From assembly GCA_021781595.1 (NCBI GenBank), contig JAJXWN010000005.1, positions 1-38,481 on the forward strand: a stretch of 38,481 nt of DNA, written 5' to 3'. Below are positions 1,710-7,479 of the stretch, one piece after another (the stretch's first letter is position 1; each line of letters begins with the position of its first letter). Below the pieces are notes generated by a model. That model was not told where the DNA came from and did not search any database. It was given only the letters and a program-made list of their open reading frames with translations. The DNA is from a bacterium (GTDB taxonomy: Bacteria; Vulcanimicrobiota; Vulcanimicrobiia; Vulcanimicrobiales; Vulcanimicrobiaceae). The position numbers and the translations under genes are program-made.

Positions 1710-2360
1710 TTACGGGAGCTCGATCTCGGAGAGGTTCTTCTCGATCTTGCGCTTGACGCGCTGCAACGCGTTGTCGATCGACTTTACGTGGCGGCCGAGG
1801 TCGCGGGCCATCTCCTGATAACTCTTGCCTTCGAGATACGATAGGAGTACTTGCGACTCGAGCTCCGAGAGGTTCTCCTGAATGCGCTCTTTGATGTCCT
1901 GAGAGACTTCCTGGTTGATTACGAGCTCTTCGGGATCGGAGGTCTTCTGCGAAGCCATCACGTCGAGCAGCGTCCGCTCGCTATCCTCATCGTAGATGGG
2001 CTTGTTCAGCGAAATGTACTGGTTGAGCGGGATGTGCTTCTGGCGCGTAGCCGTCTTGATGGCCGTGATGATCTGCCGCGTGATACAGAGCTCGGCGAAC
2101 GCACGAAAACTCGACAGTTTGTCGGCTTTGAAATCACGCACGGCCTTGTAGAGCCCGATCATCCCTTCTTGGATGATATCCTCGCGGTCCGCTCCGATCA
2201 GGAAGTAGCTCTTGGCCTTGATGCGAACGAAGTTCTTGTACTTATTGAGCAGGAACTCCATCGCCAGGTCGTCGCCCGACTTCGCGATGGCGACCAGGTC
2301 CTCGTCGACCCGCTCGTGATATTCGACGCCATCCGCCGCGACGGGATGGGTTATTGCCAT
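1710..2360 (-). CDS. sigH: RNA polymerase sigma factor, SigH-like
   Basis: KSYFLIGADREDIIQEGMIGLYKAVRDF...ITRQIITAIKTATRQKHIPLN...GRHVKSIDNALQRVKRK closely matches Bacillus sigma-H. Start trimmed to ATG at 2360 (MAITHPVAADG). Confidence 0.93.
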   Translation of the reverse strand: MAITHPVAADGVEYHERVDEDLVAIAKSGDDLAMEFLLNKYKNFVRIKAKSYFLIGADREDIIQEGMIGLYKAVRDFKADKLSSFRAFAELCITRQIITAIKTATRQKHIPLNQYISLNKPIYDEDSERTLLDVMASQKTSDPEELVINQEVSQDIKERIQENLSELESQVLLSYLEGKSYQEMARDLGRHVKSIDNALQRVKRKIEKNLSEIELP

Positions 2361-2435
2361 AATTGCCTTGCCCTCAGGGGTCCGACGCGTCGCCAGTCGC
2401 GGGCCGGGGCCCGTCGAGCGCAACGCATCCTGACC

Positions 2436-2464
2436 AGTATAGGAGGGAGCTCCTTGCGCGTCAA
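2436..2464 (-). promoter_or_regulatory. Predicted sigma70-type promoter of sigH
   Basis: Minus strand TTGACG-17 nt-TATACT; the -35 overlaps the rlmB TGA stop. Confidence 0.65.
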
Positions 2465-3252
2465 GGCGCGGAAGCCCGGGCGACCTCGCGCTGGCGGAGG
2501 GCCTCGAAAAGCAGCACGCCCGCAGCCACCGAGGCGTTAAGCGAGGCGACCCTCCCAAGCACCGGAATCCGAACCAAGTAATCGCACTCCTTCTCGACCA
2601 CCTGCGAGAGACCGTAACCCTCCGCGCCGATCACGATCGCCAGGTCACGGGCCAGATCGGCCTGCGTGAAGTCCTGGGCGGCCTCTCCGAGCGCCGCCCC
2701 CGCCACCCAAATGCCCGCCTTCTTGAGTCTCCGAAGGGCGTCGGCCACGTTCGCGACCCTTGCTACGGGGGTATGGGCGGTCGCGCCGGCCGCTGCCTTG
2801 CGTACCGTCGCGTTCACGCCGGCCGCGCGGCGTTCGGGTAGAATAACGGCGTCGACCCCCGCACACTCGGCGCTGCGGATGATCGCACCCGCGTTATGCG
2901 GGTCGGTGATGTGGTCGAGCACCACGTAAAGGGCCGCGCCGCGCCCTCGACGCAACCCGATCGCTTCATCCAGCGTGATGTACGGGAACGGCGAGCCGAC
3001 AGCGACGACGCTCTGATGCGCCTTATACGGGAACTGCGTGAAAAAGCCACGCTCTTCGAAGCGCACCAGAATGCCGAGCGCTCTCGCCTGCTCCAAGAGT
3101 CTGCGGAGGGCTGGGTCGCGCTTGCGTTCGTCGCCGACGTGGATGCGCCGCAGCTGTTCGCCGGCGGCAAGAGACTCCTCCACGGCATGCACGCCGTAGA
3201 TGACGTCGTCGAGATCTAGTGTGCTGCGGTGCGCTAGACGGCGATGGTCCAC
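2461..3252 (-). CDS. rlmB: 23S rRNA (guanosine-2'-O-)-methyltransferase RlmB / TrmH-SpoU family
   Basis: YGVHAVEE..., VVLDHITDPHNAGAIIRSAECAG, IVIGAEGYGLS, RIPVLGRVASLNASVAAGVLLFEA. Start uncertain; GTG at 3252 is a candidate. Confidence 0.88.
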   Translation of the reverse strand: MDHRRLAHRSTLDLDDVIYGVHAVEESLAAGEQLRRIHVGDERKRDPALRRLLEQARALGILVRFEERGFFTQFPYKAHQSVVAVGSPFPYITLDEAIGLRRGRGAALYVVLDHITDPHNAGAIIRSAECAGVDAVILPERRAAGVNATVRKAAAGATAHTPVARVANVADALRRLKKAGIWVAGAALGEAAQDFTQADLARDLAIVIGAEGYGLSQVVEKECDYLVRIPVLGRVASLNASVAAGVLLFEALRQREVARASAP

Positions 3253-4730
3253 GTCGTGCCTTCCTTCGAATCCTCGAGCACGACGCCGCACCGCGCGAGC
3301 GCATCGCGCAGCCGGTCGGATTCCGCCCAATTTTTGGTCGCTCGGGCCCGCATGCGCACGGCGATCACCCGCGCGATCGCCTCCTCCGCATCCGCCCCGT
3401 CGAGATCGACGCGTGCGGCGGCGTCACCCTGAGCCGATCGAAGCGCGACGCGCAGACGATCGAAGAAATCCGCAGGCAGCTCGGCCTTGGGCTCCTCGAG
3501 CCACGATGGATTCGGCGTCAGCCCCAGCAGATCGAGCGCGTATGAAAACTCGCCGAGCGCTGCCTGCAAAGCCGCACGATCGAGCCCGAGCCCCATCGAA
3601 TCGACCGGCCACGCGTAGAGCTCGCTGAGCGCCAGCGACGTGTTCATGTTATCGTCAAGCGCCCGCTCGACGCGTTCGAGCAGAGCTGCCGGCGCCGGCG
3701 GTTTGCCGATCGTGAGGGCCGGCCGGCCGGCAGCGGAATGCAACTTCCTCCAGGACGCCTGCAAGCGGCGTAGAGCCGTATTCGCGGCGGCGGCCGACTC
3801 TTCGGTAAAGTTCATGACCTTACTATAACCGGTCTGCAAGAAAAGCAGACGGAGCGCCTGCGGATCGTAGCGGTCGAGGAGATCGGTGAGCGGCTCGAAG
3901 TTCCCGAGCGACTTGCTCATCTTCCGGCTGTCGAAAAGCAGCAGCCCACCGTGCACCCACACGTTGGCCATCGGCGGATGCGCCATGAGCGGCTCGCTCT
4001 GTGCGATCTCGTTCTCATGGTGCGGAAAGATCAAATCTGCGCCGCCGCCGTGGATGTCGAAGCCTCGGCCCTCCGGGTCGAGGATCTCGTGCGACATCGA
4101 CGAGCACTCGATGTGCCAGCCCGGGCGGCCGTCGCCCCACGGCGACGGCCAGCTCGGTTCGCCCGGCTTGGCGAATTTCCAGAGTGCGAAATCGAGCGGA
4201 TCGCGTTTGAACTCGCCCACCTCGACGCGTGCACCGGCCTCCAGTTCGTCGAGCTTGCGGTTGCTGAGTCTCCCGTATCCGTCGAATCGCCTGACATCGT
4301 AGTAGACGCCGTCTCGCGCGACGTAGGCATACCCGCCCTCGATCAGGCGCGCGATCGTCGCACAGATCTGCGGCACGAACTGCGTGGCAAACGGCTCGCG
4401 ATCGGGCTCGCGGACGCCGAGCCTCTTCATCGAGGTCTTGAACGACGCGTAATACGATTGCACGATCGCGCGCCAATCCGTACCCGTCGCGATGGCGGCC
4501 TCGATGCTGCGGTCGTCGATGTCGGTGACGTTTTGCACGTACGTCACCGCGAATCCGAGGTGGATCAAGTAACGGCGCAGGACGTCGAAAAACAAAAACG
4601 ACCGGGCGTGTCCCAGGTGCGCTTGTGCCGACGGTGTGAGCCCGCAGACGTAGATCCCAACGCGCGGCGGATCCAACGGCGCGAACGCTTCGACGCTGCG
4701 CGTTCGCGTGTTATACAGCTGCAGAGACAT
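3234..4730 (-). CDS. cysS: Cysteinyl-tRNA synthetase
   Basis: YVCGLTPSAQAHLGHARS (HIGH variant HLGH), WHIECSSMS, GGGADLIFPHHENEIAQSE, KMSKSLGN; start MSLQLYNTRT at 4730. Confidence 0.95.
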   Translation of the reverse strand: MSLQLYNTRTRSVEAFAPLDPPRVGIYVCGLTPSAQAHLGHARSFLFFDVLRRYLIHLGFAVTYVQNVTDIDDRSIEAAIATGTDWRAIVQSYYASFKTSMKRLGVREPDREPFATQFVPQICATIARLIEGGYAYVARDGVYYDVRRFDGYGRLSNRKLDELEAGARVEVGEFKRDPLDFALWKFAKPGEPSWPSPWGDGRPGWHIECSSMSHEILDPEGRGFDIHGGGADLIFPHHENEIAQSEPLMAHPPMANVWVHGGLLLFDSRKMSKSLGNFEPLTDLLDRYDPQALRLLFLQTGYSKVMNFTEESAAAANTALRRLQASWRKLHSAAGRPALTIGKPPAPAALLERVERALDDNMNTSLALSELYAWPVDSMGLGLDRAALQAALGEFSYALDLLGLTPNPSWLEEPKAELPADFFDRLRVALRSAQGDAAARVDLDGADAEEAIARVIAVRMRARATKNWAESDRLRDALARCGVVLEDSKEGTTWTIAV

Positions 4731-5433
4731 CGTCGCTTCCGAGGTCTTTCGACCGGCCGCCATCCTTCGAGAGGCTCGCGATGACATCGCGCATGCCGGC
4801 GATCTCACCTTCGAGCTCCTCGATGCGCACCTGCAGTGCGGCGACGGCCTGCGCGTTCGGATCGGGCATGTCGACCTGGGGACGCCCGGGTACGGCGCGA
4901 ATCGCCAGGCCGTCCTGCATCACGATGCGCCCGGGCACGCCGACGACGGTTACATTCGCAGGCACGTCTTTCACGACGACCGAACCGCCGCCTATCCGCG
5001 AGTTGTCGCCCACCACGATCGCACCTAGCACTGCGGCGTTCACGCCGATGACGACGTTACGCCCGAGCGTCGGATGGCGCTTGCCGTGCGAAAGGCTCGT
5101 GCCCCCAATCGTAGCGCCCTGATAGATCGTACAATTCTCGCCGATCTCAGCCGTCTCGCCGATCACGACACCCATGCCGTGGTCGATGAAGAGGCCGGGG
5201 CCGATCTCGGCGCCCGGATGGATCTCGATCCCGGTGAAAAAGCGGCTGATGTGGGCGAGAAAGCGCGGCAGTACCGGAATGCCGGCGCGATGGAGCGCGT
5301 GAATGAGCCGGTGCGCCGTTATCGCATGGAAACCGGGATACGAGAGGACGACGTCCCATGGCCCGGTCGCGGCAGGATCGCGCTGCAGCGGGGCGTTGAG
5401 GTCCGCGAGGAACGTAGCCAGCGGTTTTACCAT
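4711..5433 (-). CDS. cysE: Serine O-acetyltransferase
   Basis: Left-handed beta-helix hexapeptides: IHPGAEIGPGLFIDHGMGVVIGETAEIGENCTIYQGATIGGTS...KRHPTLG. Overlaps cysS; start ATG 5433 or GTG 5436. Confidence 0.93.
   Translation of the reverse strand: MVKPLATFLADLNAPLQRDPAATGPWDVVLSYPGFHAITAHRLIHALHRAGIPVLPRFLAHISRFFTGIEIHPGAEIGPGLFIDHGMGVVIGETAEIGENCTIYQGATIGGTSLSHGKRHPTLGRNVVIGVNAAVLGAIVVGDNSRIGGGSVVVKDVPANVTVVGVPGRIVMQDGLAIRAVPGRPQVDMPDPNAQAVAALQVRIEELEGEIAGMRDVIASLSKDGGRSKDLGSDDVSAAV
4764..4785 (-). repeat. Diverged copy of the CCTTCGACAAGCTCAGGATGAC-type repeat in the cysE 3' end
   Basis: ccttcgagaggctcgcgatgac matches 18/22 of the consensus; encodes VIASLSKDG in CysE. Confidence 0.5.
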
Positions 5434-5474
5434 CACTTCTTACGAGTGTAACCGGGGTCGTCAAGCGCCGGTTG

Positions 5475-6056
5475 CTACTTTCCGTCGGGCGGCCGGTGGC
5501 CGTGGATCGGTTCGAAAGGCTCGCCGCCGGGTCCGAAGGCGATCGGCTCCAGCCCGCGACCGTGCAGCAACCGCGAGTTGACGGCGCCGATCCGGATCAG
5601 GATCCGGTCGTGCCCCAAGAGCGCAAAGAGCGCTTCCAGCGGCGGACCCTCGGTCTGGCCGGTCAGAGCGACGCGAACGGCGTGAAACGCATCGCCCGGT
5701 GCGATGCCGAACTCCCGGGCGATCTCGGAAAGGTCGTGCTGCAGGGGCAAACCGCGCAGCTCGGGCTGCGCGTCGACGTACTGACCGACGGAATCCAAGA
5801 AAAACAATACTTCGCGCGCGCGCAGCCGTTCCAATTCCAGCGCCGGAACCATACACGATTCCGCGCGCAGCTCGGCGACGGTCGCGAGCGCCTGCTCGAT
5901 CGTTTGGACCCGCTCACCGTACGCCTCGAGGAACGTGTCGATCCAGCGGAGCGCGGCCGCGGGTGCGGGCTTCTCGAGGAGGCCGTGAGCCGTCATCGCT
6001 TCGGCGAGACGCCGCGCGCGCTCGTAGCGGGACTCACCGCTATCGAAAGCGCCCAC
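5475..6056 (-). CDS. Stand-alone GluRS C-terminal (anticodon-binding) domain-like protein
   Basis: FFLDSVGQYVD...AREFGIAPGDAFHAVRVALTGQTEGPPLEALFALLGHDRILIRI resembles the GltX C-terminal cage domain. No HIGH or KMSKS region. GTG start at 6056 preceded by GGAGG (6063-6067). Confidence 0.7.
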   Translation of the reverse strand: MGAFDSGESRYERARRLAEAMTAHGLLEKPAPAAALRWIDTFLEAYGERVQTIEQALATVAELRAESCMVPALELERLRAREVLFFLDSVGQYVDAQPELRGLPLQHDLSEIAREFGIAPGDAFHAVRVALTGQTEGPPLEALFALLGHDRILIRIGAVNSRLLHGRGLEPIAFGPGGEPFEPIHGHRPPDGK

Positions 6057-6058
6057 GC

Positions 6059-6535
6059 CTATCCTCCGAGTTCGACGCCGGCAACGGCGTACGCGGCGAT
6101 GCCGGTACCGTCGCCCGTGTAGCCCATGCCTTCGCTCGTCTTCGCTTTAACGCTCACGCGATCGAGCGCCAGCCCCAAGACCCGCGCGATATTGGCGCGC
6201 ATGGCCGGAACGTGCGAAGCCAAGCGTGGCTGCTGCAACACGATCGTCGCGTCGACGTTTACCACGCGGTAGCCGGCCGCGCGCAGTTCTGCCGCGCACG
6301 ACGCAAGCAACACCATGGAGTCGGCACCCTCGAAGCGCGGGTCTGCATCGGAAAACCGGCCGCCGAGGTCGCCCAGCGCTGCCGCACCGAGCAGCGCATC
6401 GCTCACGGCGTGCGCCAGAACGTCGGCATCCGAATGGCCGAGCGCTCCCAGTTCACCGGGAATTTCGACCCCACCCAAGATCAACTTGCGCCCGGCGACC
6501 AGGCGATGCGCGTCGAAGCCGTGGCCGGCGCGCAT
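6059..6535 (-). CDS. ispF: 2-C-methyl-D-erythritol 2,4-cyclodiphosphate synthase
   Basis: [69 protein letters not shown]; start ATG 6535. Confidence 0.95.
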
Positions 6536-7479
6536 CAGTTCGCCGCCCTCGCGGCATAGTGCGAGAAGCGCGCGGTAACGGCCGACGTTCCGCCGGCCAC
6601 CGATTCGAAACGGTCGACGAAGCCGGGATACTGCCGGCTCGTCATGTACGCCCGTATCGCGGCGCCGCCTGGGAGATCGCGCTCGATGCCGTCGATCGTT
6701 CCGCCGCGCGCGGCGATCTCGCCGCATGCAGCATCGACGAGTGCCGCGTCCACGAACATCTCTACGATCAAGACTTCTTCCTCACCGGGAGCGTGCTGGA
6801 GACGATCGCGCAACGCGTATTCAGCGCGCCCCACGTCCTCGAACACCGTGACCTTGAAATTATCCGGAGAGCCCGGAACGATCTCCACGTCGACGCCGAT
6901 CCGTTCGAGGAGCGTCGCGTCGTCGGTGGCGTGCAGCGGCGAGCGCGCCGCTTCGAGGTGCGCGCGCCGCAGATCGCGCACCGTCGCCAGCTGCGGCGTC
7001 TGCGCCGCCCACAGATTCTCTCGGTCCAGCGTCCGGATGACGGTCCGTTTGCTTCGATCGACGACCTTGATGGTATCCACTACGGGCACGCCCAGGAGCG
7101 CGGCCCGTCCCTCGCGCACGACCGCCATCGCGTCGCGCACGTCTGCCGCGCGCACGAGCGGCCGCGCGCCGTCGTGCACGAGTACGGCTTCGCATTCTGG
7201 CGATAGCGCGTGCAAACCCTTGCGGACGCTCGCCTGCCGCGTCTCTCCGCCGTCGACCACCGCATGCGGCTTCCCCGCAGCCGCTGTGCGGGCCAAGGAT
7301 TCGATGGTTTCGATCCACTCCGTCTCCGTGACGACGACGAGCTCGGCGACCTCCGGCATCTGCGCCAGCGTGCGCATCGACCACAGCAGCATCGGCGCGC
7401 CGGCCAGCTCGATCAACTGCTTGGGGCCGCCGAAGCGCGTCCCGCGGCCGGCCGCAACCACCAGTGCAGCCCAGCGCAT
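6535..7479 (-). CDS. ispD: 2-C-methyl-D-erythritol 4-phosphate cytidylyltransferase with C-terminal EF-G domain V-like extension
   Basis: [32 protein letters not shown] and ATDDATLLE motifs, then ~80 aa ([10 protein letters not shown]...[17 protein letters not shown]...[25 protein letters not shown]) resembling EFG_C. Confidence 0.9.

Follow-up and report, generated by a model that had tools for sequence, protein, structure and literature searches.

The window, meaning the whole stretch of 38,481 nucleotides that was analysed, carried a gene for a free-standing anticodon-binding domain of glutamyl-tRNA synthetase (GluRS) at 5475..6056 on the minus strand. This gene, hereafter the orphan, encoded 193 amino acids and was assigned to the GluRS-B anticodon-binding domain from profile matches, a structural model and its conservation in 57 of the 99 genomes of the family, which consists of uncultured soil bacteria. 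Upstream lay ispF (6059..6535, minus strand; Pfam) and ispD (6535..7479, minus strand; sequence reading and synteny), and downstream lay cysE (4711..5436, minus strand; Pfam) and cysS (3234..4733, minus strand; Pfam, with the start picked by homology). The order yacL-ispD-ispF-X-cysE-cysS-rlmB-sigH, where X is the orphan, could be read from the translations of the open reading frames (ORFs); Pfam profiles at this locus covered X, ispF, cysE and cysS only. The GTG start (6056-6054) was positioned two bases past the TAG stop of ispF (6061-6059), and a Shine-Dalgarno-like GGAGG was located at 6063..6067 (minus strand) within the ispF 3' end. Re-reading of the sequence returned the same ORF, start codon and GGAGG as the original prediction, and the independent translation proposed there was supported. 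In many relatives, the orphan start overlapped the ispF stop by 4 nt. The orphan persisted 3.4 kb from ispF in genome G010 and was likewise away from ispF in G030. The G010 spacing corresponded to an insert of ~3.4 kb with long frames (L111, 4060-7538).

The domain assignment was evaluated with profiles and a structural model. In the comparison with GluRS anticodon families that had been suggested earlier, the Pfam profile Anticodon_2 (PF19269) matched at 5586..5957 (minus strand) with 47.5 bits, twice its cut-off of 23.6 (E value 3.2e-12), which placed the product in this family. The NCBIfam profile gltX_bact (TIGR00464) gave 29.6 bits over profile positions 346-464 of 470 only, below the GluRS equivalog cut-off of 289.95 bits. 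The AlphaFold2 model (pLDDT 91.4, pTM 0.88) had the C-terminal helical fold of GluRS, and all 41 of its best 41 fold matches in the PDB were GluRS (top E value 3.7e-5). No catalytic domain, HIGH motif or KMSKS motif was found within the ORF, either in the translation or by Pfam and NCBIfam profiles. The product is a GluRS anticodon-binding domain without the catalytic half, and the reading of the 193 residues as the C-terminal domain only was borne out by Anticodon_2, by the C-terminal quarter of the NCBIfam profile, by the model and by the fold matches.

The window genome was a Ca. Eremiobacterota/Vulcanimicrobiota MAG of 276 contigs and 91% completeness. A survey of it for gltX, an orphan catalytic domain, glnS and gatCAB, as recommended with the original prediction, returned GatB and a single tRNA-synt_1c protein. 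The latter, encoded on contig C166 with methylmalonyl-CoA mutase on one side and glmU on the other, was a complete GluRS of 499 aa that included an anticodon domain of its own. No GluRS catalytic half lacking an anticodon domain was found by profile search at this completeness, and no GlnRS was present among the tRNA-synt_1c matches. Both tRNAGln isoacceptors were present, each with U1-A72, which is the GatCAB signature in tRNAGln (PMC4381286). The three tRNAGlu genes that were read (L243, L233 and L207; CUC in G000, CUC and UUC in G010) all had a G1-U72 terminal pair.

Descent and spread of the orphan domain

Two GluRS loci were conserved across the class, namely A (MCM-gltX-glmU) and B (ispD-ispF-gltX-cysE-cysS). 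Full GluRS genes occupied both loci in the related families used as outgroups and in five genomes of the same family (G006, G007, G023, G027 and G033). In the other sampled family members, the locus-A enzyme was a different protein, A', which was 57-97% identical to the G000 copy and had P. aeruginosa GltX as its closest solved relative (637 bits). A, B and A' were separated in the catalytic-domain tree and again in the anticodon-domain tree; therefore, A' looks like a foreign in-place replacement, and judging from these sequences A looks to have been swapped for a Pseudomonas-like GluRS in most of the family. A chimeric A', with the catalytic half of B and the anticodon half of A, had been considered because A' seemed nearer to B in BLAST, and it was rejected because the separate trees put both halves in one distinct clade, apart from A and B. 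The marker-gene species tree disagreed in part with a single gain of A', as genomes that retained the ancestral A together with a full B sat among the A' genomes. At the family's locus A (e.g., L001 and L054-L087), this tree points to two or more replacements or to recombination, which is possible at both loci. A catalytic GluRS fragment at a contig edge (L093; G004:C13:1-867) had a degraded KMSKS (RLSNG) and a long branch and may stem from a contaminating contig or from a gene in decay.

The full-length GluRS of relatives occupied exactly the place of the window ORF, and the anticodon-domain trees grouped the orphans with B, beside the full-length B of G006, G027 and G033. Synteny and these trees thus trace the orphan to the second GluRS at ispDF-gltX-cysE. 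It is the C-terminal domain of the family's GluRS-B, cut at the boundary between the catalytic and anticodon domains and kept as a separate gene of the operon after A gave way to A'. Locus B of the A' genomes carried the anticodon domain alone.

The domain was present in 70 of the 99 family genomes, and subtraction of five full-length B and eight pseudo-B proteins left 57 orphans, of which 34 were inspected as sequences and 23 were called from an open frame of at most 329 aa, too short for a full GluRS. The 57 genomes spanned more than 30 genera. In most carriers, the orphan was flanked directly by ispF and cysE, many of the contigs were long, and the G010 carrier was a single-contig genome of 3.5 Mb. 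The sampled carriers mostly had one tRNA-synt_1c protein, and the few extra matches were contig-edge fragments. The original prediction was to fall if relatives had an intact gltX here and the missing half had been lost through assembly error; an intact gltX does occur in some relatives, but the 57 genomes and single-contig G010 exclude the error. Two records titled Rhodospirillales (L135 and L142) had a locus of the Eremiobacterota type, and their titles look misnamed.

None of the 18 genomes of genus g51 or the 8 genomes of genus g19 had the gene, and it was also missing from G016, G022 and G121. No B-derived gene was found between ispF and cysE in G016, G020 and G022. Loss of the whole gene in g51 and g19 indicates that the orphan is dispensable.

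Selection on the orphan and the pseudo-B proteins of genus g9

Conservation and dN/dS in relatives, which had been proposed as a check, indicated purifying selection. The dN/dS values of the orphan among close relatives were 0.10-0.25, in the same range as those of the neighbour genes. In functional B proteins, the catalytic part was constrained (0.08-0.17) and the anticodon part was loose (0.27-0.38), whereas in the pseudo-B proteins of genus g9 this pattern was reversed (catalytic 0.23-0.63, anticodon 0.19-0.40). At 60-65% marker-protein identity, the anticodon domains were 62.7% identical among orphans, 42.4% among full B, 51.6% among A' and 51.7% among A, although this comparison between clades mixes lineages and gives the gap only approximately. 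The orphan is therefore under strongly supported purifying selection with a tighter constraint than its parent enzyme. Because the constraint exceeds that of the working enzyme, a domain without function is ruled against, and the strong conservation of the domain after loss of the catalytic half indicates that the orphan has its own job. Of the "maintained remnant" proposed earlier, "maintained" was upheld by these values and "remnant" was not.

Eight genomes of genus g9 had a full-length frame at locus B, in which the catalytic part scored 60-117 bits per piece, compared with ~320. The EDTD and KLSKRH (KMSKS) motifs were damaged in 8/8 pseudo-B proteins and invariant in 20/20 full B proteins. 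Moreover, residues of the HIGH region were altered, and the putative zinc-binding insert was deleted. On sequence grounds, the g9 protein is a dead-looking pseudoenzyme with a conserved C-terminal domain. Loss of the insert by itself need not inactivate GluRS (PMC4381286). It was also missing from the full-length GluRS-B of G007 (L039; G007:C1:829000-835000, frame 2042-3280), in which HIGH and KLSKRH were intact, and its deletion in the two groups may reflect either common ancestry or convergence. The C-terminal domains of the pseudo-B proteins were 64-68% identical to the window protein and were placed inside the orphan clade (support 98/88), beside the orphans of genus g9, and the catalytic relics clustered with the family's own B (100/99). 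If a catalytic domain, once lost, cannot return, the supported forks make four or more separate losses of the catalytic half probable, with recombination as a caveat.

Anticodon face and possible roles of the orphan

The anticodon-loop-binding segment RVALTGQTEGPPLE (residues 128-141; 5634..5675, minus strand) was aligned with R435-F448 of T. thermophilus GluRS, and the residues taken to touch the anticodon were assumed from the T. thermophilus complex. In T. thermophilus numbering, the window segment kept the equivalents of R435, P445 and L447 and the B-type Gly at 444. The B-type residues at 435, 444, 446 and 447 were kept in 27-29 of 29 orphans, and position 358 was variable among orphans. 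The equivalent of Arg358 was Arg in all A and A' proteins and in 0/20 full B proteins. Arg358 of T. thermophilus has been implicated in discriminating against tRNAGln, although it is unreliable as a discriminator in some lineages (PMC3927822). Its presence in A and A' and absence from full B hint that GluRS-B was a GluRS2-type enzyme for tRNAGln. Compensation by A' for absence of the orphan through loss of Arg358 was rejected, since the Arg was kept in 15/15 A' proteins without an orphan and in 34/34 with one.

The mean net charge was -9.7 for the orphans, -5.6 for the f1/f2 B proteins, -1.8 for A, +1.0 for A' and 0 for T. thermophilus, and the g9 pseudo-B proteins were acidic like the orphans. 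A conserved C-terminal tail, LLHGRGLEPIxFGPxGxPFEPI (5490..5567, minus strand), was near-invariant. It was common to the orphans, the full-length B proteins of G006, G027 and G033 and the g9 pseudo-B proteins, and was absent from the f2/f3 B proteins. One orphan, L034 of G005, was without the tail, its frame ending after ...VGAIGNK; this was the sole such case inspected.

These observations led us to favour, weakly, an orphan that serves the Glu-tRNA/Gln-tRNA pathway as an accessory protein without catalysis and still uses its anticodon face. The parent GluRS-B appears to have had GluRS2-like features, and the host genomes would make Gln-tRNA indirectly, without GlnRS. The orphan may engage the anticodon arms of tRNAGln and tRNAGlu in trans through the retained B-type loop, and may help, chaperone or regulate charging by A' or the hand-over to GatCAB. 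This role is consistent with the retained B-type residues, the persistence of the gene in G010 and G030 despite its separation from ispF, the combination of GatB and U1-A72 in both tRNAGln without GlnRS, and the independent loss of the catalytic half in g9 with retention of the same domain. However, the unusual acidity disfavours RNA binding, and the support from residue 358 is reduced by its variability among orphans and its unreliability elsewhere. In g51, g19 and the three further genomes without the gene, A' had the same Arg358; hence, the orphan is not essential for charging tRNAGln. It is doubtful that the foreign A' charges tRNAGln or hands it over to GatCAB efficiently only with the native B anticodon domain in trans.

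The retained B-type residues, weighed with the acidity, leave the accessory role weakly favoured, with a protein-binding adaptor close behind. The tRNA-binding regulator listed in the original prediction may likewise apply, the retained residues speaking for it and a net charge near -10 against it. The fold may have been repurposed, by a logic like that of HisZ, as an adaptor or regulator in which tRNA binding is gone and the acidic surface and the tail form the interface. The orphans are far more acidic than parent B and than the A' proteins encoded alongside them, a shift that the g9 pseudo-B proteins share. This would fit the adaptor explanation, as would the near-invariant tail and a constraint spread across the whole domain. 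Nevertheless, retention of the R435, G444, P446 and L447 equivalents argues against it, and the tail peptide, considered as a shared docking motif, had no other match in four genomes or in PDB sequences. Furthermore, the tail was already present in full-length B and was therefore not made for a new role.

An RNA-binding or tRNA-sensing regulator of its own operon (isoprenoid, cysteine and CysRS genes) or of another mRNA is unlikely. The orphan was mostly translationally coupled to ispF and adjoined cysE-cysS, but it was split from ispF in G010 and G030; its position was inherited from gltX, so that no functional link to the neighbours is needed. A non-functional remnant drifting to loss is highly improbable: the whole gene was gone from g51, g19, G016, G022 and G121, but the dN/dS of 0.10-0.25, the spread over more than 30 genera (57 genomes), the constraint above that of full-length GluRS and the many cases in which a start codon had been recreated at the ispF stop all oppose it. 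Half of a split GluRS, which the original prediction had listed as an option and for which the domain make-up of the ORF is the sole argument, is scarcely credible, because the 91% complete genome yielded no catalytic half that lacked an anticodon domain; the single tRNA-synt_1c protein was the complete GluRS on C166, and single-contig G010 contradicts a split as well. An assembly or sequencing artefact can practically be dismissed: the window makes up one of the 276 contigs of its MAG, but the identical truncation recurred in 57 genomes, including G010 and many long contigs.

Comparison with known systems

The clade holds the whole series from active GluRS-B through pseudo-GluRS-B and the orphan domain to loss. 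This series is a natural deletion experiment on an anticodon-binding domain without catalysis and is tied to the exchange of A for A', in bacteria lacking GlnRS. If the orphan does act in trans on tRNAGln charging, synthetase recognition and catalysis would be separable in nature; if A' needs the B domain, the pair would form a two-part synthetase from polypeptides of different origin.

The open-access literature searched yielded no description of a GluRS anticodon domain that stands alone, and YadB was the sole GluRS entry in a review of synthetase paralogs (PMC9437257). The orphan shares with bacterial GluRS (gltX; TIGR00464) the PF19269 domain, the fold, the anticodon-loop segment and the gltX locus. 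It differs in its acidity, in its extra conserved tail and in lacking the catalytic, acceptor-binding and stem-contact domains, and therefore cannot aminoacylate on its own.

GluRS2 is the second, tRNAGln-type GluRS of H. pylori and A. ferrooxidans, and the GluRS2 of T. maritima is inactive (PMC3927822). The parent GluRS-B was likewise a second GluRS, without the Arg358 equivalent, in GatB-containing genomes lacking GlnRS. However, GluRS2 retains its catalytic domain, whereas the orphan consists of the anticodon domain only and has no domain for the specific charging of tRNAGln with Glu that would mark a GluRS2. GluQ-RS (YadB) is, like the orphan, a single-domain GluRS paralog, but in YadB the catalytic half is kept and the anticodon domain is missing (PMC9437257). 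The profiles found the opposite half in the orphan, in line with its earlier description as the architectural reverse of GluQ-RS.

In HisZ and other dead synthetase paralogs, aminoacylation is lost and the protein is conserved. The orphan had similarly lost the aminoacylation residues under purifying selection, and the g9 pseudo-GluRS-B is a close match. HisZ still has the catalytic fold and acts as a regulator of HisG (PMC9437257), whereas in the present clade that fold is gone from most species. Truncated and dead synthetase paralogs were already known, and, judging from the literature searched, a conserved GluRS anticodon domain that stands alone seems to be a new addition to them.
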